Positions 6,898 through 62,264 of a DNA stretch of 64,000 bases are shown here, piece by piece. The notes beneath the pieces were generated by a model, which was not told the DNA's origin, made no database searches, and saw nothing but the letters and a program-made list of their open reading frames with translations. The stretch's first letter is position 1, and the number at the start of each line of letters is the position of its first letter. The stretch lies in contig JAKQIT010000146.1 of the NCBI GenBank assembly GCA_029556915.1, positions 1-64,000 of the forward strand, read 5' to 3'. The DNA is from Pseudomonadota bacterium (GTDB lineage: Bacteria; Pseudomonadota; Gammaproteobacteria; Burkholderiales; Methylophilaceae). Both the position numbers and the translations under genes were made by a program.

Positions 6898-6967
6898 CCC
6901 GAGAAAAAACAAATGCTCTGGAAGCCCCATGGTTACTGGCTTACAGAACACCTATTTTGATGTTGTG
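6898..6967 (-). repeat. 3'-end hairpin repeat, copy 1 (after chpA)
   Basis: Read on the minus strand, the element starts about 15 nt after the chpA stop, with a CATC-containing lead, then a stem whose inner arms are AAGCC and GGCTTCCAGAG, and ends in a T-rich stretch and CTCGGG. The hairpin's outer pairs are CTGTAAGCC against GGCTTCCAG. Divergent in the lead part compared with other copies. Confidence 0.8.
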
Positions 6968-6982
6968 TTAAAAATGGGTATT

Positions 6983-9900
6983 TTATTGCTTTAATAATGC
7001 GTTAACTTGGGCAATTAATTCTTCATCTTGCACAGGTTTACCTAAGAACGCGTTCACACCAATTTCAGTTGCTACATTGCGGTGCTTATCGGCGGTTCGT
7101 GAACTAATCACAATCAGCGGAATATTTTTAGTGACGCTGTTATCTCGCACATGGCGTGAGAACTCAAAGCCGTCCATGCGCGGCATTTCAATGTCGGTGA
7201 GAATAATATCGGGTGTGGTATCTTGCAATTTCTGAATCGCATCCATACCATCATTCGCGGTGATTACCTCAAAATCTTCACGTTCTAGCACGCGTGACAA
7301 CACTTTACGCATCGTCAATGAATCATCCACCACCAAGACTATTTTTCTGAGTTTTTCAACCACAGGCGCAAACGTTGTGGCTTTAACCGCGCCCACTGCT
7401 AAGGCTTCGCGATTTGCTAACTGAACAGCGTTGACCACCAATACAATTTCACCATCACCTAGCACCGTAGCGCCTATCATGCCAGGCACACGCGCAAGCT
7501 GCGTGCCGATTTGCTTCATCACCACCTCTTGGTTGCCCAAAATCTCATCCACATGTAAAGCAATGCGATAGGTACCGCTACGCAACAAAACAATAGGCGT
7601 GTAAACGTGCTGCTCTGCTACCAAATTAGCGTCACCAATCAATTTGGCAAAATAATGTAGCGGGTATTCACGGTCAGACCAAACAATATGTTGTGCTTGG
7701 TAGGCATTAGCCAAATCAGCAACTTTGAGCTTTTGCACTTGTTCAATCATCACCGATGGAATGGCAAACAATTGGTGGCCAACACGCGCCATCACCACTT
7801 GTGCAACAGATAATGTTACAGGCAGGTAAATATTAAACATCGCGCCTTGACCAGCCACGTTGCTTACGTCAATACGCCCACTTAAGGCCGCAATATCGCT
7901 CCGCACCACATCTAAACCTACACCACGACCAGCAATTTGAGAAATCGTATCTGCGGTTGAAAAACCAGGTTCAAAAATCACTGCCATTAAGGCTTGGTCA
8001 GATACTTCTTGCTGCGCATCTAGCAGACCTTTTTCAATCGCTTTTTGTTTTACTTTAGCTAAATCAATACCTGCGCCATCGTCAGTGACTACAAGTGTAA
8101 TCTCATCGTTTTCAACACTGATTTTTAATTTTATATGTCCAGTTTCAGGCTTGCCTAATTTTTTACGTTGTGCAGTGCTTTCTAAACCATGCGCTACTGC
8201 ATTACGCAATAAATGCTCAAGTGGCGCGCCCATTTTATCTAGAACGCCACGGTCAATCTCAATTGATTCACCTTCAATCGTCATTTCCACGCGCTTATTC
8301 AACTCACGTGCAGTTTGGCGCACAATACGTTGCATACGCTCTGCAATGGTGGCAAAGGGCAACATGCGCACCCCCATCAAACCTTGTTGCAGCTCACGAT
8401 TCATGCGGTTTTGCTGTTGTAAAGCGGCATCTGTTTGGTCAAGATTAAGCAACAAGTTATGCTGAACCGTCGCCACGTCGTTCACACTTTCCGCCATCAT
8501 ACGGGTCAACTCTTGTAAGCGTGTAAAGCGGTCAAACTCCAGTGGGTCAAATGACTCATTGGCTTCTTGCAATAAACTCATACGAGATTGCATTTGCGTT
8601 TCAGCTTCTAGTTCTAGCTCGCGCAAATATGCACGCATACGGCTAATACTATCTGTTAAGTCCGTAGATGATTGCTTAAAGTTTTGCATCTCTCTATCCA
8701 TACGAGAGCGCATAATAGAAACCTCACCAGCCTCATTAATCAGCCTATCTAACACATCAGCCCGCATACGCAAATATTGGTATTGACGATCTTTATTGCG
8801 GGTTGCAGGTGCTGCTTTAGATTTTTGTAAAGGCGCAACTTCTGCCAATTTCTCTTGCTTAGTCACGCCAGAGACATCTTCAAGCATGTAACCAATACGG
8901 TCAAACTCCGCAAACATTTCGTCAAAATCATGCTCATTGACATTGTTACGCAAGGCGTGAATAACGCGGTCTTCCATCAGATGCACGCTATCACCTATCG
9001 TGCCTAAACCCGCCATACGTGCACTACCTTTTAAGGTATGCAAAGCGCGTTGTAGCGAGTCTGAATACTCCACTTCATGTGGATTACTACGCCATCCGCG
9101 TAAATCTCTGCCTACTTGCGGCATTAAGTCCCTAGATTCTTCTAAGAATAAATTGAGTAATTCTTGGTCTGCCGCAGTAGCAGGCAACTTATCTTCTGAA
9201 GCATTTTTTACTACTTCAACATTTTCAAGGATTTGTGGCTCCACAACTGCTGATAGCGCAAGTGCTTCAGCAGCAACTGCCATCTCTTCTGGCATTGGTT
9301 GTTCAATCTCTACGGCAGGTTCAGTCGGCGTGCTGTCAGCTTGTGGCTCATTTGTGGCTTGTTCACTTTGTTGCACTGTGGCAGGTGCTTTTTGCGCTTT
9401 ACCTGCTTTAAGCTTAAGTTGTTTTAGCGGAATACCCGCTGCTTGGATTTCTTTTTCTAACTCTAAAGATGCTAACTCTGCTTGCTGTGCTGCCTCCGCC
9501 TGCATTTTGGCAGTTGACTCACTTAGCGCTAAAATAAGTGCTCGCGCTGATTTTGGGTTTTTGAGCGCTTTAATGCGCGTTAATCCATCATCTAATGCAC
9601 GCACTACATTGCCATACAATGTAATATGCTGCGCTGACCAAGCCACTCTATGTTCATCTAACCAATGCTCTAAAGCACGCGACAACTCACCAGTTGGGTT
9701 GAAACCAGCAGCTAATGCATTACTACCTAATGTGTGCGCAGCGCGGCAGCTGGCATCAGAAGGCAGTTCTAAATCACCTTCTTTTAAAGCTTGTTGTGCT
9801 TCAAGCAAGGTTGTTAAATGTTGCTGCGCCTCATTAATAAAGATATTAAAGAATTCTAGGCTCAGCTTGCGTGTGCCCCCAATCAACACTTCTTCTTTTT

Positions 9901-12157
9901 TTGGTTTTTCTTGCTTTTGGAGCAAAGCTAGCTCTAACACACGTTCAAACTCAGCAGCTTCTTTTTGAAATACACTAGGATTTAGTGTGACTTTTTTATC
10001 CGCTTGTAAGTGACCTACACAACGGGAAAAAGCGCCTGCAACACGCTCTACAAAATCAAGATGTGCTGGGCTAGGTAAAGCCTTAAGCTCAATAATTAAA
10101 TTGAGCAACTTTTCAACAGACCATGCCACTTTACTCATGCCGACTAAACCTACGGTACGCCCACTTCCTTTAAGTGTATGGTACGCACGGCGCAAGTCTG
10201 CTAATGCTTCGCTGTCAGTAGCATTTACTGACAGTAATTTTAAGTAATTAGCGATATTCGCTAGCACTTCTTCAGCTTCAGCCAAGAAAATATCCTGCAA
10301 CTCATCGTCTAATGCTTGATCAGTCACTTCTTCAGTAAAGTCATTATCAGTAGGTGCGCTAACAATTGTCGGCGTTTGTTCACCCACAGGCACTATAGCT
10401 TCAGAAACATCTTCTACTTTCTGCTCCGCATCAAATTGCGTGAGCGAGACATCTTCTACAGCCAGACCCAATTCTTTTGCACGCTCTTGCATCCTGTTTA
10501 CAGCATCTGCTAAGGCCTGTTGTGCTTCAGCACGCACATTTGGCATCGCCTCAGCGTATAAGCCCAACATACTTAAGCTTTCAGCGACCAACTCAAAATT
10601 ATTGATGTCAGTTTTACCCACATTTTTTTTAAAATACGCCACAAATGCTGTACTTAGGGTGGCAATAGATTTAGGCGCTGCTAACTCAAGCATATCAAAT
10701 GCGGCCAACACTTGCTGTAACGGTGTTTCAGCATCTACTAGTACACTGGCATCATCTGGGTTTCTAAAAAAGCCATCTAATGCTTTTTCGACTTGTTGTA
10801 GCGCTGCTAGCACTTGTTTAGCTACCGCCGCAACTACCGTGCCATCAAGTTTATTTTGATGTCCATCGCTATCAAGCGCTGGTAAAAGTGGAACGCCGTC
10901 TGAGATGGCGCGTAAACGCGCTATTTGTGTACTGACTTTAGTGTGTAATTCTGCATCTAATTGCGCATAATGTTGTGTTATAAACTCAACTAAATTAAGT
11001 GATGATGCAATTTCAATGGCTGATATTTCGTTAAATTTAGCAACATCGGATGCCAAAGATTGTGCCGTTGAGTCGAGCGTTACAAACAAATCAACCACAT
11101 CAGTTTGATTTAGTCCGTTTTGAGCAGATTTAATGTTTGATAATTTATTTACAAAATGGGTTAAATCTATAGATAAGTTTTGACTGCTTGCCATTTTTTC
11201 CCACGCATCTTTAATGGCAGGTAAATCAGCGGCAATTTTAGCCAATGCAGTAGTTTCAGAATCCGTGACTATATGACTTTGATTGGCTGCTGTGGGTAAG
11301 GCATTTTCCAGTTCAAAGACTTCTTTAATTTTGGTCAGGGTATCAGTATTACTATCACTGATTGCCACATAATAAAGCGCGTCACGTAACAATTGTGAAG
11401 GCGCTTTTGTTTCACCTTCAGCCATATTTCGCAACTGCTGATCAAGCCGTCTGCACAGTTTTTTTGCTCCATTCAGATGCGCAACACTGCTTTGAGCTAA
11501 GGCATCCATCAAGCCAGTCGCCACCCACCACAGTGTTTTTTGTGCATTTTTATGCTGAACCTGTTGCACGTTAGCTAGGGCATCACGCATGCGTGCAAGC
11601 GCACTTGCATCTGAGCTGCGTAGCCAATCTAATAGAGACTTTTGAAAAACTGTACGCTGCTCAGTGACAAAAATAGGCACTGCAAACTCTGCTAGAGATT
11701 GGGTAGGCAAGTCTTTAGGTGCGCTAAAATCGATGTCTGGAAAAAACAACTCAGTGATTTCTAAAACTTCACCTTGTGCTTCAACCAGTGGTTTTAATGT
11801 GTCAAATAACTGTGTAGGTCGATCTGGCAACCCATTTAATAAATCTTGCAGGTACTGTGAAAGTGTAGCCACTGCCGTAGATAACTGCGTCATTAATTCA
11901 TTTGTGACAGCAATTTCTTGTTTTTCAAGTTTATTGGTGAGCTTTTCAATTTCTAAACAATAGCGCTTACAGCCCTCTAGACCGACCATATCTAGCGCGC
12001 CACTCACTTGAAATAAGTGTGCAACTGTAAAACGCAAAGAGGCAAATTCACTGGGCTTATTTGCGACTACCGTAAAGCTCTCTTGCACTTTTTTGAGTGA
12101 GCGATCAATTTCATCTTTCACCCAAGACAAAGAGCCAGCGTCAAATGCTTCAGCCAT
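6983..12157 (-). CDS. chpA: ChpA: hybrid CheA-type histidine kinase with multiple Hpt domains and a receiver
   Basis: Central kinase of the Pil-Chp system that controls type IV pili and surface sensing; it phosphorylates PilG and PilH. About 1724 residues. Hpt-type histidines are visible in YHTLKGSGRTVG (near residue 662), AAHTLGSNAL (near 804) and LHTLKGSARMAG (near 1041), after a long helical N-terminus with further Hpt-like helices. Then come the dimerisation helix, the ATP-binding domain (LLRNAVAHGLE near 1317, DDGAGID, GRGVGLDVV), a CheW-like domain, and a C-terminal receiver with VVDDS and phospho-acceptor Asp in DIILTDIEMPRMDG near 1654. The ATG at 12157 has AAGGTG 7 nt upstream; the TTG 15 nt earlier is less likely. 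Last gene of pilGHIJ-chpA. Confidence 0.93.
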   Translation of the reverse strand: MAEAFDAGSLSWVKDEIDRSLKKVQESFTVVANKPSEFASLRFTVAHLFQVSGALDMVGLEGCKRYCLEIEKLTNKLEKQEIAVTNELMTQLSTAVATLSQYLQDLLNGLPDRPTQLFDTLKPLVEAQGEVLEITELFFPDIDFSAPKDLPTQSLAEFAVPIFVTEQRTVFQKSLLDWLRSSDASALARMRDALANVQQVQHKNAQKTLWWVATGLMDALAQSSVAHLNGAKKLCRRLDQQLRNMAEGETKAPSQLLRDALYYVAISDSNTDTLTKIKEVFELENALPTAANQSHIVTDSETTALAKIAADLPAIKDAWEKMASSQNLSIDLTHFVNKLSNIKSAQNGLNQTDVVDLFVTLDSTAQSLASDVAKFNEISAIEIASSLNLVEFITQHYAQLDAELHTKVSTQIARLRAISDGVPLLPALDSDGHQNKLDGTVVAAVAKQVLAALQQVEKALDGFFRNPDDASVLVDAETPLQQVLAAFDMLELAAPKSIATLSTAFVAYFKKNVGKTDINNFELVAESLSMLGLYAEAMPNVRAEAQQALADAVNRMQERAKELGLAVEDVSLTQFDAEQKVEDVSEAIVPVGEQTPTIVSAPTDNDFTEEVTDQALDDELQDIFLAEAEEVLANIANYLKLLSVNATDSEALADLRRAYHTLKGSGRTVGLVGMSKVAWSVEKLLNLIIELKALPSPAHLDFVERVAGAFSRCVGHLQADKKVTLNPSVFQKEAAEFERVLELALLQKQEKPKKEEVLIGGTRKLSLEFFNIFINEAQQHLTTLLEAQQALKEGDLELPSDASCRAAHTLGSNALAAGFNPTGELSRALEHWLDEHRVAWSAQHITLYGNVVRALDDGLTRIKALKNPKSARALILALSESTAKMQAEAAQQAELASLELEKEIQAAGIPLKQLKLKAGKAQKAPATVQQSEQATNEPQADSTPTEPAVEIEQPMPEEMAVAAEALALSAVVEPQILENVEVVKNASEDKLPATAADQELLNLFLEESRDLMPQVGRDLRGWRSNPHEVEYSDSLQRALHTLKGSARMAGLGTIGDSVHLMEDRVIHALRNNVNEHDFDEMFAEFDRIGYMLEDVSGVTKQEKLAEVAPLQKSKAAPATRNKDRQYQYLRMRADVLDRLINEAGEVSIMRSRMDREMQNFKQSSTDLTDSISRMRAYLRELELEAETQMQSRMSLLQEANESFDPLEFDRFTRLQELTRMMAESVNDVATVQHNLLLNLDQTDAALQQQNRMNRELQQGLMGVRMLPFATIAERMQRIVRQTARELNKRVEMTIEGESIEIDRGVLDKMGAPLEHLLRNAVAHGLESTAQRKKLGKPETGHIKLKISVENDEITLVVTDDGAGIDLAKVKQKAIEKGLLDAQQEVSDQALMAVIFEPGFSTADTISQIAGRGVGLDVVRSDIAALSGRIDVSNVAGQGAMFNIYLPVTLSVAQVVMARVGHQLFAIPSVMIEQVQKLKVADLANAYQAQHIVWSDREYPLHYFAKLIGDANLVAEQHVYTPIVLLRSGTYRIALHVDEILGNQEVVMKQIGTQLARVPGMIGATVLGDGEIVLVVNAVQLANREALAVGAVKATTFAPVVEKLRKIVLVVDDSLTMRKVLSRVLEREDFEVITANDGMDAIQKLQDTTPDIILTDIEMPRMDGFEFSRHVRDNSVTKNIPLIVISSRTADKHRNVATEIGVNAFLGKPVQDEELIAQVNALLKQ

Positions 12158-12205
12158 ATTACACCTTACCAATATTTAGTAATATCATCATGCTGAATGT
12201 GCTAC

Positions 12206-13945: not shown

Positions 13946-14010
13946 GTTTAACCCCAGTTTTTACTTATCATGTTATTTTTACAAAAAAATTACACCCAAC
14001 TACTAAAACT

Positions 14011-14915: not shown

Positions 14916-14916
14916 G

Positions 14917-16890: not shown

Positions 16891-17394
16891 ATGGCAAATT
16901 CAGTCACATTAAAAGGTAACCCAGTCGCAATCGGCGGCAACTTTTTGCAAAAAGGCCAAACTGCTCCTGATTTTCAATTAGCTGACGCTAAACGTAATAT
17001 GCTTTCACTCGCAAACTTTGCGGGCAAACGCAAAATTCTCAACATCTTCCCCAGCATCGACACCCCGACTTGCGCCACTTCTGTACGCACATTCAACCAA
17101 AAAGCCAGCGGCATGCATAATACTGTAGTGCTTTGTATTTCTGCCGATTTACCATTTGCACAAAGCCGTTTTTGCGGTGCGGAAGGCATTGAAAACGTGC
17201 AAACACTTTCTACTTTCCGCGACACAGCTAAATTTGCAAAAGATTATGGCGTACAAATTGTGGATAGTAGCTTGGCAGGCTTAACTGCGCGCGCTGTTGT
17301 GGTGCTAGATGAAAACAACAAAGTGTTGCATAGCGAATTGGTGTCAGAAATTGCCAATGAACCCAATTATGATGCAGCTTTGGCAGCTTTATAA
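16891..17394 (+). CDS. tpx: Thiol peroxidase (Tpx, atypical 2-Cys peroxiredoxin)
   Basis: Reduces lipid and other hydroperoxides with electrons from thioredoxin. 167 residues. The peroxidatic Cys is in [14 protein letters not shown] near residue 61 and the resolving Cys in SRFCGAEGI near residue 95, as in E. coli Tpx. The ATG at 16891 has AAGGA about 8 nt upstream and gives the standard [16 protein letters not shown] start. Monocistronic: terminator before, and a 3'-end hairpin repeat (17418-17473) after. Confidence 0.96.
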
Positions 17395-17417
17395 AGTTTA
17401 AAGTATCTTAAAAACAC

Positions 17418-17473
17418 GTGCCCTGCAAGCCTTATAGAATAACGATTCCAGGGCATTAAATTTTTCTTGGCGC
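17418..17473 (+). repeat. 3'-end hairpin repeat, copy 2 (after tpx; loop subtype B)
   Basis: Begins 23 nt after the tpx stop. Outer stem GCCCTG/CAGGGC instead of the common CCTCTG/CAGAGG, a compensatory change. Apical part TTAT-AGA-ATAA. Followed by ATTAAATTTTTCTTGG, the equivalent of the T-rich tail and CTCGGG end of other copies. Lies between convergent tpx and mazG-like genes. Confidence 0.7.
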
Positions 17474-17480
17474 TAATATC

Positions 17481-17834
17481 TTACTGATATTCGGTATATT
17501 TAGCATTACTCCCCCGCACTTTTTCAGCAGGGTATTTTTTGGCGTTCAAGTCAATTTTTTGGTTGGCGGCGTCAATCAAGTCAATGTTCAGCACCTCGGC
17601 AATGCGCAATAAATAGACAAAAGTATCCGCTAACTCATGGCTCACCGCCTCGCGTTTTTCGGGCGTGAGTTGCGTACTTTCTTCAGGTGTGTTCCATTGA
17701 AACTGCTCAACTAACTCTGCCGCTTCGACTATCATCGCCATGGCTAAATTTTTGGGGGTGTGAAATTGCGCCCAATCGCGCTCAGCAACAAATTGGTCTA
17801 TACGGATTCGTAAATCTGCTAATGAGTCACTCAT
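17481..17834 (-). CDS. MazG-like nucleotide pyrophosphohydrolase
   Basis: All-alpha NTP pyrophosphatase, likely house-cleaning of non-canonical nucleotides (dCTP-pyrophosphatase-like). 117 residues. The metal-binding EXXE...EXXD signature is seen as EAAELVEQFQW near residues 33-43 and HELADTFVYLLRIAEVLNIDL near residues 66-86. Single domain, no partner. The start at 17834 is ATG. Substrate cannot be read from the sequence. Confidence 0.88.
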   Translation of the reverse strand: MSDSLADLRIRIDQFVAERDWAQFHTPKNLAMAMIVEAAELVEQFQWNTPEESTQLTPEKREAVSHELADTFVYLLRIAEVLNIDLIDAANQKIDLNAKKYPAEKVRGSNAKYTEYQ

Positions 17835-17855
17835 GTTAAAACCCTTAAAAAATCC

Positions 17856-17927
17856 CCCGAGAAAATTTTATGCCTCTGCAAGCCGCTTGCAGACTGGCTT
17901 ACAGGGCGCCCCAAAGAAGTGCTTGTG
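17856..17927 (-). repeat. 3'-end hairpin repeat, copy 3 (after rlmL)
   Basis: Minus-strand sense, starting about 18 nt after the rlmL stop. Stem arms CCCTGTAAGCC and GGCTTGCAGAGG (one G-U pair). Then CATAAAATTTTCTCGGGGG at the 3' end. Loop carries CAGTCTGCAAGC rather than the common CAGTATCCATGC. Confidence 0.85.
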
Positions 17928-17945
17928 TTTTTAAGCTAAAAATAG

Positions 17946-26708: not shown

Positions 26709-26759
26709 ATAGCACAAAAATTTTGTGCCAATTTTTAAGGCTTTTGTAACGTAAAAAAT

Positions 26760-26839
26760 CCTCCGTACAAAAAAATATGCTCTGAAAGCCCCGCCGTTAT
26801 TGGCTTGCAGAGCAGGTGTTATGAAGATGTGCTAAAAAT
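26760..26839 (-). repeat. 3'-end hairpin repeat, copy 4 (after the HDAC-like gene)
   Basis: Minus-strand sense, starting about 31 nt after the HDAC-like stop. Stem GCTCTGCAAGCC / GGCTTTCAGAGC, with the outer C-G pair of other copies swapped to G-C. Lead retains CATCTTCAT. The tail is degenerate (ATATTTTTTTGTACGG in place of the usual CTCGGG end). Between convergent genes. Confidence 0.8.
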
Positions 26840-26870
26840 GGTGCTTTTTGGGTATGTTACCGATCAAAAA

Positions 26871-30481: not shown

Positions 30482-30649
30482 GGGCAGAAAAAATTGAAGT
30501 AAAACGTTATGTTAGCGCATTACCGAGTTGATTTGATGACATAGCGCAACAAACATCGTGGTTTTAATCAAAGTTAAAAAACTGTATTGCGCATAAAATT
30601 TTGCTAAAAATTGAATCTGAAAATAATCAATAATTAGCTGTTAATTTCG

Positions 30650-30718
30650 CCCGAGAGAATTTTATGCCTCTGGAAGCCGCATGGATACTGGCTTACAGAA
30701 GCGGTGAAATGAAGATGC
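30650..30718 (-). repeat. 3'-end hairpin repeat, copy 5 (after the TonB-like gene)
   Basis: Minus-strand sense, about 22 nt after the stop at 30741. Lead GCATCTTCATTTCACCG, stem TTCTGTAAGCC / GGCTTCCAGAGG with loop AGTATCCATGC, tail CATAAAATTCTCTCGGG. Close to the consensus. Confidence 0.9.
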
Positions 30719-30740
30719 GTAAAAAAAGTGTCTTTTTAGC

Positions 30741-31655
30741 TTAAAATTTGGCTTTATAATGCGTGCCATAAAACTCCATCATCAAAAAATTTTCAAGCTC
30801 TGCGTTATCTTCTAAACGTGCAGATTTCACCACCGTGCGGTTTAAGCGTTGCGACTCCCAATTAAAATCGCCTTGATAATGCGTGCGAATTAAACTGATC
30901 ATTTTTTGCACAGCCAGCAAGCGCACATCTTCATCTTGCATGGCTTCAACTTCAAAATATTCGCGCCGCGCATTGCTATAATCGTTCGTCCACCCTTTAA
31001 ATGAAAAAGTGATGCGGCGACTACTTTTGCTGGTGATTTCAAATATGCCATTGGTGCCCACTTTTAAATTATTTTTAATGCGTTCCTCGCGTTTTTGTTC
31101 TTCGCTTGGACCTTGCTCGCGCGCAATCGCCTCTGCATTTTGCTGTGCCGCATCGCCTTCTCCAGCATTGCGTTTGGCTTGTTGCGCTTTGATGTATGAA
31201 GCCATGTCGGTAGGCTCGCTTGCAGATGGCACATTGACTGGCGGCGTTGGCGCTGGCGTGCTTTCAACAACCGGCTTAGTGTCTTCTTCAGGCATGGTAA
31301 ATACTGGCTTTTGTGCGGCGTTTGCTGGTTTAGCCATCACTTTGCGTTTGGGTTTCACTTTTTTTTCGACCTTTTTCACCACTGGTTTTTCAGGCACAAG
31401 TTCAGGCAAAGGTTCGGGGTTGGCTTCTGGCACAATAGGTTTTTCTATCTTGGCTGGGGCAAGGCTGATTTCTAGTGTGGTTGGCGGTGGAGAGGCTTGA
31501 TTAAAAAGCAACATTGGCGCCACAAACACCAAAATGAGCGCATGAATGACCAGTGAAAAAATTACTGCGATTAATGTGTTTCGGCTAATTTGCAGGCGGA
31601 TAGAGGCATCACCGCGTGGTCTTAATATTTGAGTTTGTAAGCGTTGGTTTTGCAT
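30741..31655 (-). CDS. Inner-membrane protein with TonB-like architecture, unknown function
   Basis: 304 residues. A short cytoplasmic arm, one membrane segment (LIAVIFSLVIHALILVFVAPMLLF, near 28-51), a proline-lysine-rich periplasmic spacer (about 55-150: EKPIVPEANPEPLPELVPEK, then KKVEKKVKPKRKV), and a C-terminal folded domain (about 200-304) that I do not recognise as a TonB beta-domain. The N-terminal anchor with SHxxH-like VIHALI and the spacer are TonB-like, but no exbB/exbD lies nearby. It follows hrpA by 6 nt on the same strand. Confidence 0.7.
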   Translation of the reverse strand: MQNQRLQTQILRPRGDASIRLQISRNTLIAVIFSLVIHALILVFVAPMLLFNQASPPPTTLEISLAPAKIEKPIVPEANPEPLPELVPEKPVVKKVEKKVKPKRKVMAKPANAAQKPVFTMPEEDTKPVVESTPAPTPPVNVPSASEPTDMASYIKAQQAKRNAGEGDAAQQNAEAIAREQGPSEEQKREERIKNNLKVGTNGIFEITSKSSRRITFSFKGWTNDYSNARREYFEVEAMQDEDVRLLAVQKMISLIRTHYQGDFNWESQRLNRTVVKSARLEDNAELENFLMMEFYGTHYKAKF

Positions 31656-36535: not shown

Positions 36536-37426
36536 TTAATCGTTTCTCACCCGCAAAAAGCTAGCAAATTTTGGCTTGCCATTTTTTGTAACTTCACGGT
36601 AAGTATAAGTCACCACACTGCCAATTTTGGGCGGGTTTTGGCGCTCGGCGTCACTTAAACCAGTGCCTAACTTAAACTGCACCCCTTCTGGCGTTTGCAC
36701 CACCAGCGCACCAAGCTTGCCTTGATATTTTCCGCGCCCTGCGGTGTGCGCAATCACGGTTGCCTCAGCATCTAACAACAGTTTTAGTTTGAGTAGCGCA
36801 TCATTGCGCCCCGTTACATAAAGTGCATCTGCACGATGCAACATCAAACCCTCGCCACCTGCCGCTACAATTTGCTTTAGCTTTAGGTTGAGCTCCGCTT
36901 CATTTTTTAGCCGAAACTGCTTTACCGCTTTTAAATGCGCTAAATGAGCTTCTTCTACAATTTCTTCAATGTGTTTTGCGCGTGCTTCAAATGTGCCAGC
37001 GTCACCCGGCAACTCAAACACGTTATAACTAATATTTTTCCATTCTGCCTCTACAGGCACCTCTTTACGCACCGCAGCAGAAAGCGCATCAAATTGCCTG
37101 CGCGCTAGCCACAATTCACCATCCAGCGCTGTGGCAGGCAATGGTTTGGTAAACCAAAATGGCGCGTTAATCACATTACCAGCGCGCGTGCGCAACACTT
37201 TGCCATCCCAAATCGCGCGCACGCCATCTAATTTTTCACTCACTAAATATTGCTTAACATCCACACCGCGCTGGTAAATGTGTGCAAGTAAAATGTCGGG
37301 CGATTTCTGCGCAGTTTTAGCAACTTCATCCGCAAGAGTATTGGGTGAAAAATGCGCGCAAACAAGCAGCCAAATCCACACGAAAAATTGTGAAAATTGA
37401 ATATGCATTTTATTACACTGTAGCAT
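36536..37426 (-). CDS. Exported ATP-dependent DNA ligase (Lig E-like)
   Basis: 296 residues. Signal peptide (hydrophobic FFVWIWLLVCAHFSPNTLA) then a minimal ligase: adenylation Lys65 in SEKLDGVRA (motif I), LDGELW (motif III), and GGEGLMLHRADALY (motif IV), followed by KLKLLLDAEATVI (motif V) and a short OB domain. Such periplasmic ligases occur in Gram-negative bacteria with DNA uptake systems. Two ATG starts (37426 and 37408) both allow a signal peptide; neither has a strong ribosome site. Convergent with the GAF gene, 13 nt apart. Confidence 0.87.
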   Translation of the reverse strand: MLQCNKMHIQFSQFFVWIWLLVCAHFSPNTLADEVAKTAQKSPDILLAHIYQRGVDVKQYLVSEKLDGVRAIWDGKVLRTRAGNVINAPFWFTKPLPATALDGELWLARRQFDALSAAVRKEVPVEAEWKNISYNVFELPGDAGTFEARAKHIEEIVEEAHLAHLKAVKQFRLKNEAELNLKLKQIVAAGGEGLMLHRADALYVTGRNDALLKLKLLLDAEATVIAHTAGRGKYQGKLGALVVQTPEGVQFKLGTGLSDAERQNPPKIGSVVTYTYREVTKNGKPKFASFLRVRND

Positions 37427-37435
37427 TAAAAAACG

Positions 37436-37502
37436 TCCGAGAGATTTTTATGCCGCTGCAAGCCTCATGCTGACTGGCTTACAGAGGTGGTCAAATGATG
37501 TT
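37436..37502 (-). repeat. 3'-end hairpin repeat, copy 6 (after the methyltransferase gene)
   Basis: Minus-strand sense, about 54 nt after the stop at 37557. Lead ACATCATTTGACCA, stem CCTCTGTAAGCC / GGCTTGCAGCGG, tail CATAAAAATCTCTCGGAC. Confidence 0.88.
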
Positions 37503-37556
37503 GATATAAAAAAGCCAAAAAAACCTTATTTTTTAGCGTTATATTTGCTGTGTTAA

Positions 37557-42081: not shown

Positions 42082-42450
42082 ATGAAAAAAAGTTTAATTC
42101 TTATTAGCACCCTATTTGCATTAGGCACTTCATACAATGCGATGGCGGATAAAGCCACTTATCTGGACAAAAAAGGTGACCGTATTGAAGATCGCTTAGA
42201 TAACCGTGGTGATCGCATTGAAAACCGTTTAGACAACAAGGGTGATCGTATTGAAGACCGTTATGATGCCAGAGCCGATAAAGCACGCGCCAATGGCCAT
42301 GAGCAACATGCCAATGCGCTTGAGCAAAAAGGTGATCGTATTGACCAACGTTTAGACAAACGCGGTGACCGCATTGATAATCATCTAGATAGAAAAGGGG
42401 AGCGCATCAATAACCGCCTAGACAAACGTGCAGCGCATCATCGTAAATAA
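42082..42450 (+). CDS. Exported charged 11-residue-repeat protein, unknown function
   Basis: 122 residues. Signal peptide MKKSLILISTLFALGTSYNAMA, then three tandem undecapeptides (KKGDRIEDRLD type), a degenerate helical stretch rich in Ala, His and Glu, and three more repeats, ending in RAAHHRK. Consensus x(K/R)GDRIxxRLD. The period of 11 and the alternating charges suggest a long amphipathic helix or right-handed coiled coil. AAGGA lies 8 nt before the ATG. It is 57 nt upstream of an ECF sigma gene on the same strand. I do not recognise a named family. Confidence 0.75.
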   Translation: MKKSLILISTLFALGTSYNAMADKATYLDKKGDRIEDRLDNRGDRIENRLDNKGDRIEDRYDARADKARANGHEQHANALEQKGDRIDQRLDKRGDRIDNHLDRKGERINNRLDKRAAHHRK

Positions 42451-44154: not shown

Positions 44155-44212
44155 GCGCAATATTGCGTTAAATTTTTAAGTAACAAAACTCGCTTTTTAA
44201 ACCTGAATTCAC

Positions 44213-44282
44213 ACATCTTCCCTTCACCACCTCTGCAAGCCAGTATCTATGCGGCTTCCAGAGGCATGATTTTCTCTCGGGC
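44213..44282 (+). repeat. 3'-end hairpin repeat, copy 7 (after the DUF3106 gene)
   Basis: Plus-strand sense, about 58 nt after the DUF3106 stop. Lead ACATCTTCCCTTCACCA, stem CCTCTGCAAGCC / GGCTTCCAGAGG with loop AGTATCTATGC, tail CATGATTTTCTCTCGGG. One of only two copies on the plus strand, and both follow plus-strand genes. Confidence 0.9.
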
Positions 44283-44388
44283 AGTTTTTAGGCTTGTTTT
44301 ATAGATTTATTTGAGGTGAATCATACACCTCAAGTTAGCGCAAACAACTCATGTACTAAATGTTAAAATACCAAGGTGGCCTAACTTC

Positions 44389-47109: not shown

Positions 47110-49146
47110 ATGCTTAACTCCCTCAATGCGCCCCAGCGCGAAGCCGTAAAATATTTAGATGGCCCACTTCTGGTGTTGGCTGGTGCTGGCTCTGGAAAAA
47201 CGCGTGTTATTACACAAAAAATCAGCTACTTAATTAACGAGGCTGATTATCAGCCCAAAGAAATCGCTGCAATCACTTTCACTAATAAAGCTGCATTGGA
47301 AATGCGCGAACGCGTGACTAAACTCATGCAAGGCAAAAACCTCAAAGGCCTCACCATTGCCACTTTCCACTCGCTAGGGCTACAAATATTACGCCAAGAG
47401 GCAGCACTTCTGGGCTATAAGCCTCAGTTTTCCATTTTAGATGCTAGCGATAGTTATAAAATTTTAAGTGATGTGCTTGCCACTACCGACAAACAATTAT
47501 TACGCAAAACCCAATGGCAGATTTCAAACTGGAAAAACGGCTTTGTGAATCCAGACCAAGCTAAGGCCACGGCGAATGAAGAACTCACCCACGCTGCGGC
47601 CAAGGTTTATCAGATTTATCAACAAACCTTAAAAGCGTATCAAGCGGTTGATTTTGATGATTTAATTAAACTGCCAGTTGAATTATTTGATACACACGAA
47701 GACGCTCTTAATCGCTGGCAACGCAAATTGCAATATTTGCTGATAGATGAATATCAAGACACCAATGCTTGCCAATATAAGCTCGTCAAAATGCTCACCG
47801 GCGTGCGTGGCCAATTTACAGCCGTAGGGGATGATGACCAAGCCATTTACGGCTGGCGCGGTGCAGACGTTGAAAATTTACGGCAACTCACCGAAGACTT
47901 TAGCAAGCTAAAAGTGATTAAATTAGAACAAAATTATCGCTCTACCGTGCGGATTTTACGTGCTGCAAATCAAGTCATTAGCAATAATCCCAAATTATTT
48001 GAAAAGAAACTTTGGAGCGAGCTTGGCACTGGCGATTTAATGCAAATCACCGCCTGCATGAGTGAAGAGCATGAAGCAGAAAGTGTGCTCATGAAACTGC
48101 AAGCACATAAATTTGAACATAGAACACAATTTAAAGATTATGCAATTCTCTATCGCGGTAACCATCAGGCCCGCATTTTTGAAAAAGAATTACGTAAAAA
48201 TAATATTCCCTACACGATTTCTGGTGGTCAATCTTTTTTTGATAAAGCTGAAATCAAAGACTTAGTCAGTTACTTACGCCTGATTGCGAATGAAGATGAT
48301 GACCCTGCGTTTATTCGCGCCGCTACCACGCCCAAAAAAGGCATCGGCAACACGACATTAGAACGATTGGGGGAATACGCGAGTGCGCACAAAATATCGC
48401 TCTTTGCTGCAGCTTTTGAAAGTGAATTTCAAAGTGAAATCGGCCATAAGCAATGCGATGATTTACTCAATTTCTGCCAGTATATCAATAAGTTGCAAGA
48501 TAGAGCAGTTAGCGATATTGCGGGCGAAGTGCTCAATGACTTACTAACTGCCATTCAATATGAATCTTATTTATATGATATTGAAGAACCACGCGCCGCA
48601 GAAGCTAAATGGTCGAATGTGCTAGACTTTGTCGGTTGGCTAACTAAAAAAGGCGAAGCTAGCACCGAATTTGGCGCTGAGACTGAAGGCAAAAACCTGC
48701 TAGAGCTCACGCAAATGGTATCGCTGATGAGCATGTTGGAAGGTCAAGAAGAAGGTGAGCCCGATGCCGTTAAACTCTCAACTTTGCATGCCGCTAAGGG
48801 CTTGGAGTTTGGCCATGTATTTTTAATTGGCGTAGAAGAAGGTATATTACCGCACAGAGAAAGTGTTGATTTGGCCACTTCTGACCCGACTAAAATCGAG
48901 GAAGAACGCCGCTTAATGTATGTGGGCATCACGCGCGCGCAAAAATCGCTCAATATCTCATGGTGCAAAAAACGTAAGCGGGCGGGCGAAATGGAAATGT
49001 GCGAACCCAGCCGCTTTATTGGTGAAATTCCTAAAGAAGATGTGCGCCATTTTGGCAACCCTTTCAATAAAGACCCAGAAGCCAGTAAAGACTTTGGTAA
49101 ATCTAAAATGGCCAACATTAGAGAAATGCTCGCAAAAAATAGTTAG
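47110..49146 (+). CDS. rep: ATP-dependent DNA helicase Rep (UvrD/Rep superfamily 1)
   Basis: 3'-5' helicase that clears proteins ahead of replication forks. 678 residues from the ATG at 47110 (MLNSLNAPQREAVKYLDGPLLVLAGAGSGKTRVI); a GTG 27 nt upstream would extend it but adds nothing conserved. Motifs: Walker A AGAGSGKT, Ia TFTNKAALEM, II LIDEYQDTN, III DDDQAIYGWRGAD, IV LEQNYRS, V LSTLHAAKGLEF, VI EEERRLMYVGITRA. The conserved length and the Rep-like C-terminus favour Rep over UvrD. Confidence 0.94.
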   Translation: MLNSLNAPQREAVKYLDGPLLVLAGAGSGKTRVITQKISYLINEADYQPKEIAAITFTNKAALEMRERVTKLMQGKNLKGLTIATFHSLGLQILRQEAALLGYKPQFSILDASDSYKILSDVLATTDKQLLRKTQWQISNWKNGFVNPDQAKATANEELTHAAAKVYQIYQQTLKAYQAVDFDDLIKLPVELFDTHEDALNRWQRKLQYLLIDEYQDTNACQYKLVKMLTGVRGQFTAVGDDDQAIYGWRGADVENLRQLTEDFSKLKVIKLEQNYRSTVRILRAANQVISNNPKLFEKKLWSELGTGDLMQITACMSEEHEAESVLMKLQAHKFEHRTQFKDYAILYRGNHQARIFEKELRKNNIPYTISGGQSFFDKAEIKDLVSYLRLIANEDDDPAFIRAATTPKKGIGNTTLERLGEYASAHKISLFAAAFESEFQSEIGHKQCDDLLNFCQYINKLQDRAVSDIAGEVLNDLLTAIQYESYLYDIEEPRAAEAKWSNVLDFVGWLTKKGEASTEFGAETEGKNLLELTQMVSLMSMLEGQEEGEPDAVKLSTLHAAKGLEFGHVFLIGVEEGILPHRESVDLATSDPTKIEEERRLMYVGITRAQKSLNISWCKKRKRAGEMEMCEPSRFIGEIPKEDVRHFGNPFNKDPEASKDFGKSKMANIREMLAKNS

Positions 49147-49264
49147 TATATGTTTATATTCATATAGTTAATTTATATATATAAAGTTTAGCTTTAACTT
49201 TAATGCGCCAAACCACTACACTACTATCAATCTACAAAAAAAAGCCAATAAACCACGAAAAACA

Positions 49265-49331
49265 CCCGAGCGAAAATCATCGCCCTGGAAGCCACATGGA
49301 TACTGGCTTCCAGCGGTGATCAAATGATGAC
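49265..49331 (-). repeat. 3'-end hairpin repeat, copy 8 (orientation exception)
   Basis: Well-formed copy whose sense strand is minus: CATTTGATCACCGCTGGAAGCC, loop AGTATCCATGT, GGCTTCCAGGGCG, then ATGATTTTCGCTCGGG. The inner stem is perfectly paired here (CTGGAAGCC/GGCTTCCAG). Unlike the other ten, no annotated minus-strand gene ends upstream of it. Confidence 0.88.
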
Positions 49332-49667
49332 ATGCAAATATGAGTACTCAATAACGCAGAAAACGACTGCATAACTACCATTGCTTTGTAATAGACATGG
49401 CGCAATAACTTAAATCGCCCGATTTTGCTGGCTATTTAGCCAAAATAATTAAATTAAACGCACAATCAGCCGTTATAAAATGCAGCTATAGCGCTTATGA
49501 AACAGCTAATCTATTGAATTATTTACAAATATTCACATTGCAGATAAGCACATAAATTCTTAATGCAGTTACTTATCAAGTTTGTTTAAGTGTTTGTTAG
49601 TATTTGATAAAAATAGATTTTATTTACCTACAGTTACTTTATGCAGTTATAATTATTCTATGCGATT
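49332..49667. other. Non-coding stretch between repeat copy 8 and the PAS-GGDEF-EAL gene
   Basis: About 335 bp, AT-rich, no convincing coding frame on either strand. It must contain the promoter of the gene at 49668. Because repeat copy 8 at its left edge normally marks the 3' end of a transcription unit, a minus-strand RNA could end there. Confidence 0.35.
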
Positions 49668-55530: not shown

Positions 55531-55558
55531 AATGGCTTAAAATTTAAGCAATATTTCA

Positions 55559-55682
55559 CCCGAGAGAAAATCATGCCTCTGTACCAGCACTTGGCATCCC
55601 CATTCTCGCTAAGTGCGTGCGCACTAAGTCGAATGTGAAAGCCGCATGTAATAAGGCTTGCAGAGGTGGTCAAATGAAGATA
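55559..55682 (-). repeat. 3'-end hairpin repeat, copy 9, interrupted by a nested palindrome
   Basis: Minus-strand sense, about 42 nt after the YkgJ-like stop. Outer parts are standard (lead TATCTTCATTTGACCA, CCTCTGCAAGCC, GGCTT, tail CATGATTTTCTCTCGGG), but about 58 bp (roughly 55582-55638) are inserted between GGCTTT and CAGAGG. The insert folds on itself: CATTC...CTAAGTGC-GTGC-GCACTAAG...GAATG. The loop carries the TTAT of subtype B. Confidence 0.85.
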
Positions 55683-55724
55683 GGCATATTTCCAGTTGAA
55701 TTTCACTTTGAATACGCCAAAAAT

Positions 55725-56051
55725 TTAGTGAGGTTCGTTGGTATCTAACACAGGCAAATGATAGTATTTTCTCGCCTCATGGCATTCTGGCGAGCCAGCT
55801 TGAAACTCGCGGCAAGTGCTTGAGCGCAACGCATAAATCTCACAACGCACTTGCTCACCCACCTCCCCTTTAAGGGCGATGCATTTAACAGGCTTTTTTT
55901 CAGTGCCTTTCATACAAACATAGTGCGGATTAACACTTTGCGTGAGTTGCGCAGGCACTTGCCCCAAAGGATGCGCGTCGGTTTCAGCCCAATAAAATGA
56001 CACACGAAACGCAGCGCAACAAGCGCCACAATGTTGGCAATCTAGTGACAA
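55725..56051 (-). CDS. YkgJ-family cysteine cluster protein
   Basis: 108 residues. N-terminal Cys cluster LDCQHCGACCAAF, then YVCMKGTEKKPVKCIAL, VRCEIYALRSSTCREF, and ECHEARKYYHLP: the eight or so Cys pattern of the YkgJ family, thought to bind zinc or an iron-sulphur cluster. The start is TTG at 56051 (GGGTAAA upstream), since no ATG precedes the first Cys cluster. Function in the cell is unknown. Flanked on both sides by 3'-end hairpin repeats. Confidence 0.85.
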   Translation of the reverse strand: MSLDCQHCGACCAAFRVSFYWAETDAHPLGQVPAQLTQSVNPHYVCMKGTEKKPVKCIALKGEVGEQVRCEIYALRSSTCREFQAGSPECHEARKYYHLPVLDTNEPH

Positions 56052-56083
56052 ATTTTACCCTTAAAAAAAGCGTACTAATAATA

Positions 56084-56151
56084 CCGATAAATTTTTATGC
56101 CTCTACAAGCCTTATAGAATAAGGATTGTAGAGGTGGCTTAATGATGTTGT
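56084..56151 (-). repeat. 3'-end hairpin repeat, copy 10 (after the RND pump gene; loop subtype B)
   Basis: Minus-strand sense, about 27 nt after the RND gene stop. The longest stem of the family: CCTCTACAA-T-CCTTAT, loop TCT, ATAAGG-C-TTGTAGAGG. The outer pair set CTACAA/TTGTAG replaces CTGnAA/TTnCAG on both sides, a compensatory change. Tail CATAAAAATTTATCGG. Confidence 0.88.
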
Positions 56152-56178
56152 GCTATAAATTAACTTTTAAATATCACT

Positions 56179-59100: not shown

Positions 59101-59250
59101 CATGATAATCTTTACCTGTGTGCTAGAAACATCAGGAAAAGCATCAATGGGCAATTCTTTTGCCGCGAAAAGCCCACCTGCTATCAGGCAAACGGTGAAT
59201 ACAATGACCAATAGCGGATTTCTTAAAGCAAGTTCAATTAACTTATTCAT
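56179..59250 (-). CDS. RND-family heavy-metal efflux pump (CzcA/CusA type)
   Basis: Inner-membrane proton-driven pump of a tripartite metal exporter. About 1023 residues: MNKLIELALRNPLLVIV (TM1), paired large periplasmic loops, PVASVGFIALLGIAVLNGVVMMSY and the RRRLRPVLMTASIAAFGLVPLL repeat. The TM4 stretch AIGMLVDAAVVVVEN matches the AxGxxxD...EN pattern described for monovalent-cation (CusA-type) pumps rather than the DFGxxxD pattern of CzcA. The ATG at 59250 overlaps the upstream stop (TGATG); an upstream reading from 59274 is rejected. Third gene of the efflux operon. Confidence 0.92.
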   Translation of the reverse strand: MNKLIELALRNPLLVIVFTVCLIAGGLFAAKELPIDAFPDVSSTQVKIIMKSPGLTPEEVEARITAPIEIEMLGLPNQTMLRSVAKYGLTDITIDFADGTDIYWARNQVAERINAIRGDLPSDATGGIAPMTTPLGEMLMFTVEGGGLSLAEQRSLLDWVIRPQLRSLEGVADVNALGGRVKTFEIVPDLAAMQARGITLESLQTAVERNNRNDGAGRLSQGEEAIIVRSEGRINSIDDMLNTVVKADAGTVVRVKDVATVNISHLTRNGAVSHNGQGEVVEGLVLGLRGANAQKLVQGVEAKLKEIEPTLPKGVKLNIFYNRGNLVDRAIQGVSKAMVEAIALVMVLLFLFLGNLRAAITVAIILPLSALCTFMLMRYFGMSANLMSLGGLTIAIGMLVDAAVVVVENVESKLAHFSGKGSKVGLVLKAVEEVGTPVLSGIAIIIIVFLPLLTLQGLEGKLFAPVALTIVFALAASLLLSLTVIPVVATMLISTKHHAEPWLVRQALRLYTPILNFALKRSQLVMTVAVVMLLITAGIYTQIGKTFMPTMDEGDIIMGTEKLPSITLEQSVAVDLRVQAAVLKNVPEVAQIVSRVGSDELGLDPMGLNQTDNFIILKPRDQWRTQNKEDIVDSLRNVMADFAGIDYSFTQPIDMRVNEMILGVRGDLAIKLYGADLKVLSAKAAQIKSILEGINGAEDVYTPQNSGVQYFSVKIDREKAGRLGFDIARIQEALRTQVEGMQLGIVQEAERRTPLVIKGAESLRISPTDFAQIRITSNEGVSVPLATLAALERVEGPVKIDRERASRMVVVTSNVKDRDLVSFVEEAKQKIGAQVKLDAGYRIQFGGQFENQQRAAQRLSIVIPIAILLIFILLFSTFHSIRQTVLILANIPFAMIGGVFALWLSGEYLSVPASVGFIALLGIAVLNGVVMMSYFNQLRIEGYAMMEVVIEGAKRRLRPVLMTASIAAFGLVPLLFATGPGSEIQKPLAIVVIGGLISSTFLTLILLPMLYQKFGSKGQTFAA

Positions 59251-60350: not shown

Positions 60351-61597
60351 GGTAAGTCTCCTACTGCCTGGTTATACCGTGCAGTGTTCCAAAGCTGTTG
60401 AATTTGTTGGTTTTTAAAGGCGCGCTCAGCATTAAATGCTTGCGTTTGTACGCGTAAATAATCGCTTAAATCTAGCTCACCCACTTGAAAAGCTTTGCGC
60501 GTGACCGCCAAACTTTGCTGCGCAATCTGATGCTGCTTAGTGAGCACTTCAAGCTGCATCTTGCCAACTTCCAGGTTATGCTCAGCCTCGTGCATGGCTG
60601 CGGCAAGTAACTGTTTTAACTGGCTTAAATTAACTTGCTGCATCACATATTGCATTTCTGCCTCTGCGCGCGCAGGGGCATTACGCGTTTCACTACTTAA
60701 GGGAATGGTGAGCGTAACCCCGAGACTATCGTTATAGCTATTATCAAAAGCACCGCGCGTGGTGCGCGTGCCGAACAACACTTTAGGATTATCGCGCGTT
60801 TCAATTTTTACCAAATTGCGTTGTTCTGCTCTCAACGCGATTTTCCCTTGCGCATCTAACAAGGCTGGATGACTTTCTTCCACATCTTGCTTACTAGATT
60901 TAGTTTCTGAATATTCAGCCGGGATGACTTGCAAACCTGTTAAATTGATATAGCGAAACTTAGCATGCTGAACTTCAGCTTCAGTATTAATTTTCTCGGT
61001 TTTGGCCTGTAAAGTTTCGGTTTGCGCTACGAGCAAATCTTTTTGCGCCATATCACCCAATTTCACGCGCATTTCCACATCACGCTCTAACTGGCTGGCA
61101 GATTCAAGCTTCGCTTGCGCTATTTCGGCTAACCCTTGCGCGAGTTGAATATCCCACAAGGCATCGCGGATAAGCCCAGTCAATTGCAGACGGACATTTT
61201 GTGTATCATTACCTAAATTTTGCGCAGAAATAGCGGCAATAGCCTCACGCGCTTGTCGCTGACCGCTGAGCCAAATAGGCAACTCAATACCCACTTCCCA
61301 TTCCATTTCACCGCGGTTACTTAATATTTTATCGTTTTGATTACGCAACATCACGCTGGGCGCATGTGGCAAAAAACTTTTTGCGTGCGTTTTTCGCGCC
61401 TCAATTTCAAGTCTTTTTGCAGCGAATAGTTGGCTAGTTGGGTAGTGTGGCAACGCTTTTTCAACTAAATCTTTAAGCGTTAAACGGTTATCAACGGTTA
61501 ATAAGTCTTCATGTGGCGCTTCTTCCGCGCGCACAGACACACTATGAAAAGTCAATAACAGTAGTATAGGCCACAGTAAACGTGGTAAATGCATCAT
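60347..61597 (-). CDS. Outer membrane factor of the metal efflux system (TolC superfamily, CzcC-like)
   Basis: About 416 residues. Signal peptide (LLWPILLLLTFHSVSVRA), then two OEP repeats of long amphipathic helices (EARKTHAKSFLPHAPSV; QKDLLVAQTETLQAKTE; LKQLLAAAMHEAEHNLEVGKMQLEVLTKQ). The ATG at 61597 has GAGG about 7 nt upstream and is preferred over the ATG 12 nt earlier. First gene of the three-gene pump operon, 59 nt after the small His-rich gene. Confidence 0.88.
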   Translation of the reverse strand: MMHLPRLLWPILLLLTFHSVSVRAEEAPHEDLLTVDNRLTLKDLVEKALPHYPTSQLFAAKRLEIEARKTHAKSFLPHAPSVMLRNQNDKILSNRGEMEWEVGIELPIWLSGQRQAREAIAAISAQNLGNDTQNVRLQLTGLIRDALWDIQLAQGLAEIAQAKLESASQLERDVEMRVKLGDMAQKDLLVAQTETLQAKTEKINTEAEVQHAKFRYINLTGLQVIPAEYSETKSSKQDVEESHPALLDAQGKIALRAEQRNLVKIETRDNPKVLFGTRTTRGAFDNSYNDSLGVTLTIPLSSETRNAPARAEAEMQYVMQQVNLSQLKQLLAAAMHEAEHNLEVGKMQLEVLTKQHQIAQQSLAVTRKAFQVGELDLSDYLRVQTQAFNAERAFKNQQIQQLWNTARYNQAVGDLP

Positions 61598-61655
61598 ATA
61601 AATCCTCATTAAATCAATTGGTTAAAACTAACCAATATAAACAAATTTGATTTAA

Positions 61656-62051
61656 TTAACGAGGAGGTGCACGTGGGCTGGGGTGGTTGTAACTAAGCCG
61701 CTTGCGAAACAGTGGTTTTAAAGGAGGATAGCTAATATGCGTTTGCTGAGACATTAACAGCAAAGCAAAGCTAAAAAATATTGCGATGCCCAATATTGGA
61801 CTTAGCATTAAATCATCCATATTTTGTGGCACTATGCCATTTGCCACTGTTACCACATAACCTATAGCTTGCTCGGTTGATGTGTCCATCAGCATATTCG
61901 AAGTTGATTGTGCGGTTGCGATATGGCTATGAATATGTACCGCACGCTCATTTAACGAATCCAGCCCGAACGCGTGGGCGTGAATAAACGGCCCAATGAG
62001 TTGTAAACCGATTAAGCAAAATGCGAGATAAATTTTAAGACTGTTTAGCAT
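61656..62051 (-). CDS. Small His-rich membrane protein leading the efflux operon (CzcI-like?)
   Basis: About 131 residues. N-terminal hydrophobic segment (LKIYLAFCLIGLQLIGPF), then HAHAF and HIHSHIA clusters that could bind metal, a second hydrophobic segment (LSPILGIAIFFSFALLLM, near 85-102), and a tail ending in HPSPRAPPR. CzcI proteins of czc operons end in a similar Pro/Arg tail and hold His/Cys clusters, which suggests a metal-sensing or regulatory role; the match is by feel, not by alignment. The ATG at 62051 is preferred over GTG at 62057. 59 nt before the outer-membrane gene, likely the same transcript. Confidence 0.55.
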   Translation of the reverse strand: MLNSLKIYLAFCLIGLQLIGPFIHAHAFGLDSLNERAVHIHSHIATAQSTSNMLMDTSTEQAIGYVVTVANGIVPQNMDDLMLSPILGIAIFFSFALLLMSQQTHISYPPLKPLFRKRLSYNHPSPRAPPR

Positions 62052-62196
62052 GCGCACATTATAGTGTTTTAAGTACCAGATTCAATTTTAGTTGGCAAAT
62101 ATTAAGGATTTCTTAAATGAGTCATTCAGTGCTAAAAAAGTTGCATTCTAATCACAAAATTGCAAAATAATAACGTTAATACACCACCAAAAAAAC

Positions 62197-62264
62197 TGCC
62201 GAGAAAATTTTATGCCTCTGGAAGCCGCATGGATACTGGATTGCAGAGGCACACAAATGAAGAC
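62197..62264 (-). repeat. 3'-end hairpin repeat, copy 11 (after the tRNA-Arg 3' half)
   Basis: Minus-strand sense, about 28 nt beyond the 3' end of the tRNA-Arg fragment. Lead TGTCTTCATTTGTG, stem GCCTCTGCAATCC / GGCTTCCAGAGGC, loop AGTATCCATGC, tail ATAAAATTTTCTCGGC. Presumably the original transcript end of the split tRNA gene. Confidence 0.88.

Follow-up and report, generated by a model that had tools for sequence, protein, structure and literature searches.

Repetitive extragenic palindromic sequences (REPs) are known from convergent gaps and from unidirectional ones, close to gene 3' ends (excerpts of PMC3733652). DNA gyrase of Escherichia coli follows a symmetric 130-bp motif, whose central part spans -16 to +19 and whose flanks have a GC content periodic at 10.75 bp; the arms are taken to wrap on the C-terminal domains of GyrA, and the enzyme also cuts the palindromes of bacterial interspersed mosaic elements (BIME-2), favouring loops and unpaired parts (excerpts of PMC6379681). 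In a preprint (excerpts of PMC12324340), other gyrases have a period of 10-11 bp out to 120 bp from the cut. Gyrase may be guided to gene ends by sequence, or supercoiling alone may bring it there, and the excerpts for E. coli report that its attraction is not hard-wired (PMC6379681). In this study, we examine a hairpin repeat that occurs hundreds of times in a methanol-eating bacterium whose closest named relatives, judged by one protein, are mostly Methylotenera; it lies mostly just beyond gene ends. It was noticed in the first 64,000 nucleotides of contig JAKQIT010000146.1 (assembly GCA_029556915.1), a stretch called the window here, where a sequence-only reading had described eleven copies of a structured 3'-end element and proposed a propagated terminator or an RNA processing or stability signal. 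A/T spots recur about once per helix turn around the hairpin, so that the element resembles a site of DNA wrapping or bending more than a simple RNA stop signal.

The genome comprises 3.28 Mb in 165 contigs, the window being contig C155. An exact core, CTGNAAGCC-N11-GGCTTNCAG, is found at 208 places genome-wide, against 0 for a reversed-pattern control, and in 7 of the 11 window copies. A full reading covered 464 kb (20 stretches of 20 kb plus the window), where a profile search gave 74 hits at E <= 1e-3, two of them halves of one long copy and the weakest possibly due to chance; by extrapolation from these 464 kb, the genome holds about 500 copies. Each copy consists of a lead (about CAACATCATTTNACC), a 35-bp hairpin and a tail (about CATAAAATTTTCTCGGG), the arrangement that the sequence-only reading had outlined, although the parts are variable. 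The palindromic core of 35 bp has 12-bp arms with one free mismatch and an 11-nt loop, and hairpin stability has a mean z of -4.07. Covariation in the stem was measured on 181 copies drawn from four genomes. It is seen for the pairs +-10, +-15 and +-17 from the centre (147, 132 and 142 Watson-Crick pairs; the highest shuffled values were 119, 112 and 104), whereas pairing is not maintained at +-11 (58 against a shuffled mean of 51.7). G-U on the sense strand is not clearly commoner than A-C at the stem pairs (57 to 40, p=0.10; 13 to 19 in the own genome), so the pairing may be kept at the DNA or the RNA level.

The element is surrounded by arms with a helical rhythm. When copies are aligned on their centres, near-invariant A-or-T columns appear at about -62, -51 and -40 and at +39, +51, +62 and +74. 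Beyond about +-45 A and T are mostly interchangeable in these columns, and since either base is equally good there, the pattern is not a U-tract. In a discovery set of 58 copies the Fourier amplitude in the flanks from +-44 to +-95 was 0.099 and 0.101 on the two sides, matched by 0 of 1000 controls on each; in the controls every copy was shifted at random, and their maxima were 0.061 and 0.054. The 41 further copies of the same genome gave 0.119 and 0.124 (0 of 1000 controls on each side). Phased arms are likewise present in two related genomes, G009 (19 copies; 0 of 1000 controls on both sides) and G051 (30 copies; 0.078 and 0.079, 0 of 2000 on each side). Over all 99 own copies the phase is near-identical in every 34-bp bin from -138 to +145, each with 0 of 1000 controls, and the best period for a single phase running through the centre is 11.40 bp (bootstrap 11.35-11.40), compared with 11.3 in G051 and 11.25 in G009.

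This periodicity is not carried by shared ancestry of the flanks, which are non-homologous from one own copy to another (identity averages 0.314 and 0.308, the column-shuffled level). It is found in coding and non-coding cells of the flanks alike (1 of 1000 controls for right-side coding, 0 of 1000 for the other three) and is shown by convergent copies as well as by those in tandem gaps, sense or antisense. That the phasing only follows from palindromes in the flanks was considered and dismissed, as it persists once palindromes are masked; so was the idea that it is a general property of the genome, because A/T autocorrelation elsewhere is weak (the lag-12 value is 0.018 next to elements, against 0.008 for coding sequence and 0.006 for the remaining intergenic DNA). 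No phasing surrounds the 93 T-tailed terminator hairpins examined, all >200 nt from elements (0.006 and 0.010; 810 and 381 of 1000 controls), whereas an equal number of element copies gave a left-side amplitude of about 0.086. In 300 kb of E. coli K-12, a REP pattern gave 54 matches, some REPs being matched on both strands, and phasing around them was not significant (164 and 68 of 1000). In the library of papers that was searched, nothing matched the element or phased arms on such repeats. The phased A/T arms are a new observation, and one that lies at the DNA level.

Placement relative to genes was assessed with a simple purpose-made gene finder, which some small genes escape. In the 464 kb, the element is present in 27 of 36 convergent gaps of >=60 nt (27 of 43 of any width), in 33 of 127 tandem gaps and in 3 of 43 divergent gaps; the difference between convergent and divergent occupancy has p=2.2e-10, and one more convergent gap holds a long copy just below the score limit. 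Of the tandem-gap copies, 24 have the sense orientation and 9 the antisense one (p=0.014); some of the 9 may follow small uncalled genes. Seven of the 74 hits fall in called genes, three of these at <25 bits and thus possibly by chance. In a further genome, G001, 420 kb contained 33 copies (17 convergent, 7 tandem sense, 4 tandem antisense and 5 intragenic) and none in 42 divergent gaps. The 3'-end preference is real; the strict orientation with the preceding gene that had been read from the window is not, for genome-wide there is only a bias, and intragenic and antisense copies exist. The description as a dispersed, structured 3'-end element stands on the 208 exact cores, the gene-end placement and the covarying stem. 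Some copies lie in reading frames without breaking them, on contigs C14 (L013 15044-15973; L019 16457-17776) and C4 (L020 17861-18802); the host frames include what we take to be those of a ZIP-like transporter ('KKSANIKGDALQASKYKASSGAKNARA') and a PabB-like protein.

A strict-setting search found the element in 9 of 41 genomes, all nine among 25 of the same genus, and in 0 of 16 genomes of other genera in the same order; the own genome gave at least 103 copies in this survey. G051 has at least 150, by a separate count. Related subfamilies occur in other Methylotenera, and core subfamilies vary from genome to genome. Thirteen orthologous pairs, which involve 12 own copies with one used twice, have flanks whose relationship shows in gapped comparison (they score 12.8 and 9.5 on average, and unrelated pairs -0.5 and -1.6), and yet their cores are no closer than those of random copies (25.9 against 22.8, sd 9.4). 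The phase is kept on both sides of the comparison (relatives, 1 and 0 of 1000; own copies, 0 and 0 of 1000). Related flanks with indels, unlike cores and a kept phase would fit descent in place, with indels in the arms followed by restoration of the register and with cores changing in concert. Of 68 copies in relatives, 22 had a predicted place in the part of the own genome that was read, and an own element lay within 250 nt of it in 19; the figure is 15 of 17 when five matches of <30 aa are left out, and 9 of 11 in stretches that were not picked for elements. Occupancy is so high that part of this sharing of positions may be coincidence.

Individual junctions, read by eye, vary. Among 38 relatives' flanks at the rlmL/mazG junction only one (L068) has the element, and most gaps there are short. 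Beside the deacetylase gene an element lies within 190 nt in the own genome and in G051, and the other 26 loci are without it; after the methyltransferase gene (30 loci) it is present in the own genome only. At that last position, G009 (L230) has a sequence with the marker of a longer form of the element. This long form, seen at window positions 55545-55695 and at L014, L009, L008, L001 and L018, carries an insert of about 56 nt in the stem; with lead and tail as reference, its inside occurs either way round, and its marker has 28 genome matches at <=2 mismatches. A minority of copies also have the loop reversed with respect to lead and tail (6 of 99 in the own genome, G000; 7 of 19 in G009; 6 of 30 in G051; 2 of 33 in G001). 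In G001 a subfamily (L158, L179-L198) has a longer, more symmetric stem, ACATGCCCTGCGAGCC...GGCTCGCAGGGCATGTG, with phased arms weak or absent, and may show what is lost without the arms.

Our favoured but still tentative reading of these data is that the repeat is a dispersed DNA-topology element, whose copies are candidate hard-wired wrapping sites, probably for gyrase, at the ends of transcription units. The 35-bp palindromic core would be the two-fold axis of about 280 bp with A/T every 11.4 bp, and the phased A/T would let DNA bend or wrap around a two-fold symmetric protein. That protein would most likely be DNA gyrase, with the core at the cleavage gate and the arms on the GyrA C-terminal wheels. 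A site past gene 3' ends, above all between convergent genes, could then hold gyrase where the positive supercoils of transcription collect. Symmetric, helically phased G/C arms around a centre, as in strong gyrase sites, were found in three genomes (weak in G001, and with a period and length unlike those of E. coli). Several observations weigh against this proposal. The period of 11.4 is longer than the 10.75 of E. coli gyrase, the phased region of about 280 bp exceeds the 130-bp motif, and in E. coli the downstream attraction of gyrase is reported as not hard-wired (E. coli data from excerpts of PMC6379681). Lead and tail are unlike each other, which a symmetric protein would not need, and gene-end placement by itself is also seen in known REPs. 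In G001 the phasing is weak or absent in 33 copies (left, 22 of 2000 controls; right, 1247 of 2000), with 2 and 3 of 1000 in a 19-copy set. Ten isolated E. coli REPs have weak, borderline phasing (41 and 9 of 1000), so the contrast with E. coli is not clean.

The proposal of a propagated terminator, or of a 3'-end RNA hairpin whose stem ends or protects the transcript and which took over the sites of intrinsic terminators, is possible without being the best reading, and we think it fairly unlikely; taken as a whole, the sequence-only interpretation is partly supported. A terminator would account for the location past stop codons, the 24:9 sense bias in tandem gaps and the covarying stem, and it would agree with the 27 of 58 copies that have at least 5 T in some 7-nt window right after the stem. 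At the tpx 3' end opposite mazG the element stands in the place of terminators. There, 31 of 40 relatives' loci were readable (several gaps are >500 nt and hold other genes). Judged by eye, an ordinary bidirectional A-run/hairpin/T-run terminator is present in 19; the element occurs alone in 6 (as in the own genome) and together with such a terminator in 1; of the rest, 2 have a TAGGAGCG-type palindrome, 2 a different hairpin, and in 1 no hairpin was seen. The TAGGAGCG-type palindromes are those of L064 and L068, as if repeats compete for the place. Against a terminator, 17 of 58 copies have at least 5 T within the 8 nt at +18..+25, A-runs alternate with T-runs, and as a family these 58 copies are without a conserved U-tract after the hairpin. 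Strictly called terminators overlap 0 of 70 elements, and under a looser rule on one strand 6 of 28 elements in convergent gaps qualify. Nor does G-U significantly exceed A-C in the stem, and copies lie inside genes and antisense to them. The idea that element-bearing gaps lack other terminators was rejected, since other T-tailed hairpins are not rarer beside the element (convergent gaps, 24 of 28 with and 7 of 11 without, p=0.19). Phased A/T in non-homologous flanks also counts against a terminator, because an RNA terminator needs no such phasing and the arms are left unexplained.

The arms could instead be a mere target, if the enzyme of a mobile element prefers phased, curved DNA and the repeat is no working site. 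A copy across the 3' end of a gene for a REP-associated tyrosine transposase (RAYT)-like protein, a copy between rlmL and mazG, the intragenic copies and the extension of the phasing into flanking coding sequence would all agree with insertion into pre-bent DNA. We nevertheless hold it to be unlikely, given that ordinary terminators are without such phasing, that other intergenic DNA has only weak autocorrelation and that orthologous flanks are shifted by indels, yet keep the phase in both partner sets. An ordinary REP moved by a RAYT appears more improbable than this. Hundreds of short palindromes at gene ends speak for it, as does the one RAYT-like gene of the genome (L031:3690-4239; G000:C14 about 239690-240239), found by the search that the sequence-only reading had suggested. 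An element copy overlaps its last codons, the protein departing from its relatives after DWPYSNF, and no copy was found on its 5' side. Most of 20 RAYT relatives' loci, read by eye, are flanked by their own GTAG palindrome and mostly not by the element; at L090 a copy lies upstream, beside the preceding gene. The 13-mer of the own RAYT's GTAG palindrome occurs once in the genome (exact match). Among 99 copies, one has GTAG 10 nt or less from the stem and none has a CGTC tag. The CGTC class has a CGTC/TGTC tag, an 8-9 bp stem and a 4-5 nt loop, against 12-bp arms and an 11-nt loop here. A RAYT-associated GTAG REP was therefore set aside. Published work meets the earlier doubt about REPs in part, as these also occupy convergent or unidirectional gaps near 3' ends (excerpts of PMC3733652).

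A protein-free element that pins plectonemes or forms a cruciform, its phased bends and palindrome holding a supercoil tip, or a site wrapped by another nucleoid protein, is also improbable in our judgement. A period above 10.5 bp with a long coherent range would suit it, and A-tract periodicity has been linked to plectonemes (excerpts of PMC9825172); the conserved loop, lead and tail suggest instead a factor that reads sequence. A DNA uptake sequence was rejected, as the four CTGNAAGCC half-sites occur 105 times inside elements and 26 times outside in the 464 kb (5-8 each outside, close to chance by estimate; reversed controls, 0-2). One copy used in a plasmid search had no match, and a search of Rfam, likewise suggested earlier, gave only the tRNA in the window, with the 30.6-kb copy sub-threshold (best E 0.47). 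If the preferred gyrase reading is extended, some Methylotenera may have wired gyrase, or a gyrase-like wrapping protein, into the gene map. Several hundred palindrome-centred, phased sites of 280 bp would then lie past gene ends and in about three-quarters of wide-enough convergent gaps, kept at orthologous places while their cores change in concert and in places replacing terminators, and one element would govern both topology and, perhaps by acting as a roadblock, where transcripts end. We regard this fuller account as doubtful. Were it true, sequence-directed placement of gyrase could be tested in a genome where most convergent gaps carry a phased two-fold site, and short palindromic repeats would gain a DNA-level reason for their 3'-end placement that is independent of a transposase.

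The eleven window copies had been placed correctly: all were recovered by a covariance model at E <= 3.4e-6 (Table 1). Nine window copies were among the 42 used to build this model, so only those at 17391 and 55545 are independent of it. The description of their surroundings held in part. Ten of eleven had been put 15-60 nt after a gene of the same orientation; nine lie about 8-58 nt (stop codon to lead) past a same-strand gene, the distance for the 55.6-kb copy being measured from an ORF (open reading frame) ending at 55725 that the gene finder overlooked. The copy at 62184-62278 is not within that range of tRNA-Arg, and for 49251-49345 no own-strand gene is callable upstream, the copy lying after a plus-strand gene that ends at 49146. 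That each preceding gene ends its transcription unit is wrong for 17842-17935, whose flanking rlmL and mazG-like genes are adjacent in most relatives read by eye. For 30636-30730, the averaged profile, as distinct from this copy alone, leads us to expect phased arms to about +-140 bp of the centre.

Table 1. Copies of the hairpin element in the window, with covariance-model scores; the names chpA, tpx and rlmL are labels of the sequence-only reading.
Feature	Position	Strand	Score (bits)	Setting
Element copy	6884..6978	-	78.4	After ORF 6983-12172 (chpA)
Diverged copy	17391..17485	+	36.1 (E 3.4e-6)	Convergent gap, tpx / mazG-like gene
Element copy	17842..17935	-	73.9	Between rlmL and mazG-like gene
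Element copy	26748..26842	-	70.0	After histone-deacetylase-like gene, convergent with cobW-like gene; orthologous copy in G051
Element copy	30636..30730	-	90.5	After ORF 30741-31655; hairpin centre about 30684
Element copy	37422..37516	-	89.9	After methyltransferase gene
Element copy	44201..44295	+	90.7	After DUF3106 gene
Element copy	49251..49345	-	81.7	Antisense to tandem plus-strand genes on both sides
Long-form copy	55545..55695	-	51.6 (over 151 nt)	After CxxCxxCC (YkgJ-like) gene
Element copy	56069..56163	-	68.9	After AcrB-type RND pump gene; compensatory stem change CTAC / GTAG
Element copy	62184..62278	-	83.6	About 200 nt downstream of tRNA-Arg(CCT)

The window also contains an ORF at 42082-42450 (122 aa) whose segments 42175-42254 and 42331-42410 hold repeats at a spacing of 33 bp (11 residues).

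Compared with described systems, the element shares with REP and BIME-2 of E. coli and with GTAG or CGTC repeats that its copies are short dispersed palindromes in convergent or unidirectional gaps near 3' ends, some of them intragenic, and BIME-2 are gyrase sites (excerpts of PMC3733652). It differs from them in having no GTAG/CGTC tag and no cognate RAYT that we found, in being mostly single and not in head-to-head clusters, and in its long asymmetric lead and tail and phased non-homologous arms. Intrinsic terminators, the bidirectional ones of convergent gaps among them, occupy the same places and alternate with the element between genomes at the tpx 3' end; the element departs from them in lacking a conserved U-tract, in its intragenic and antisense copies and in its phased arms. 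With the gyrase motif and strong sites (phage Mu SGS; E. coli Topo-Seq), it has in common the symmetry, a centre of about 36 bp and periodic G/C arms, and gyrase is attracted to regions downstream of transcription, where the element would sit (excerpts of PMC6379681). Set against that motif (same excerpts), its period is 11.4 and not 10.75 bp and its extent about 280 and not 130 bp, and the element has a conserved, covarying palindromic core and hundreds of copies at gene ends.

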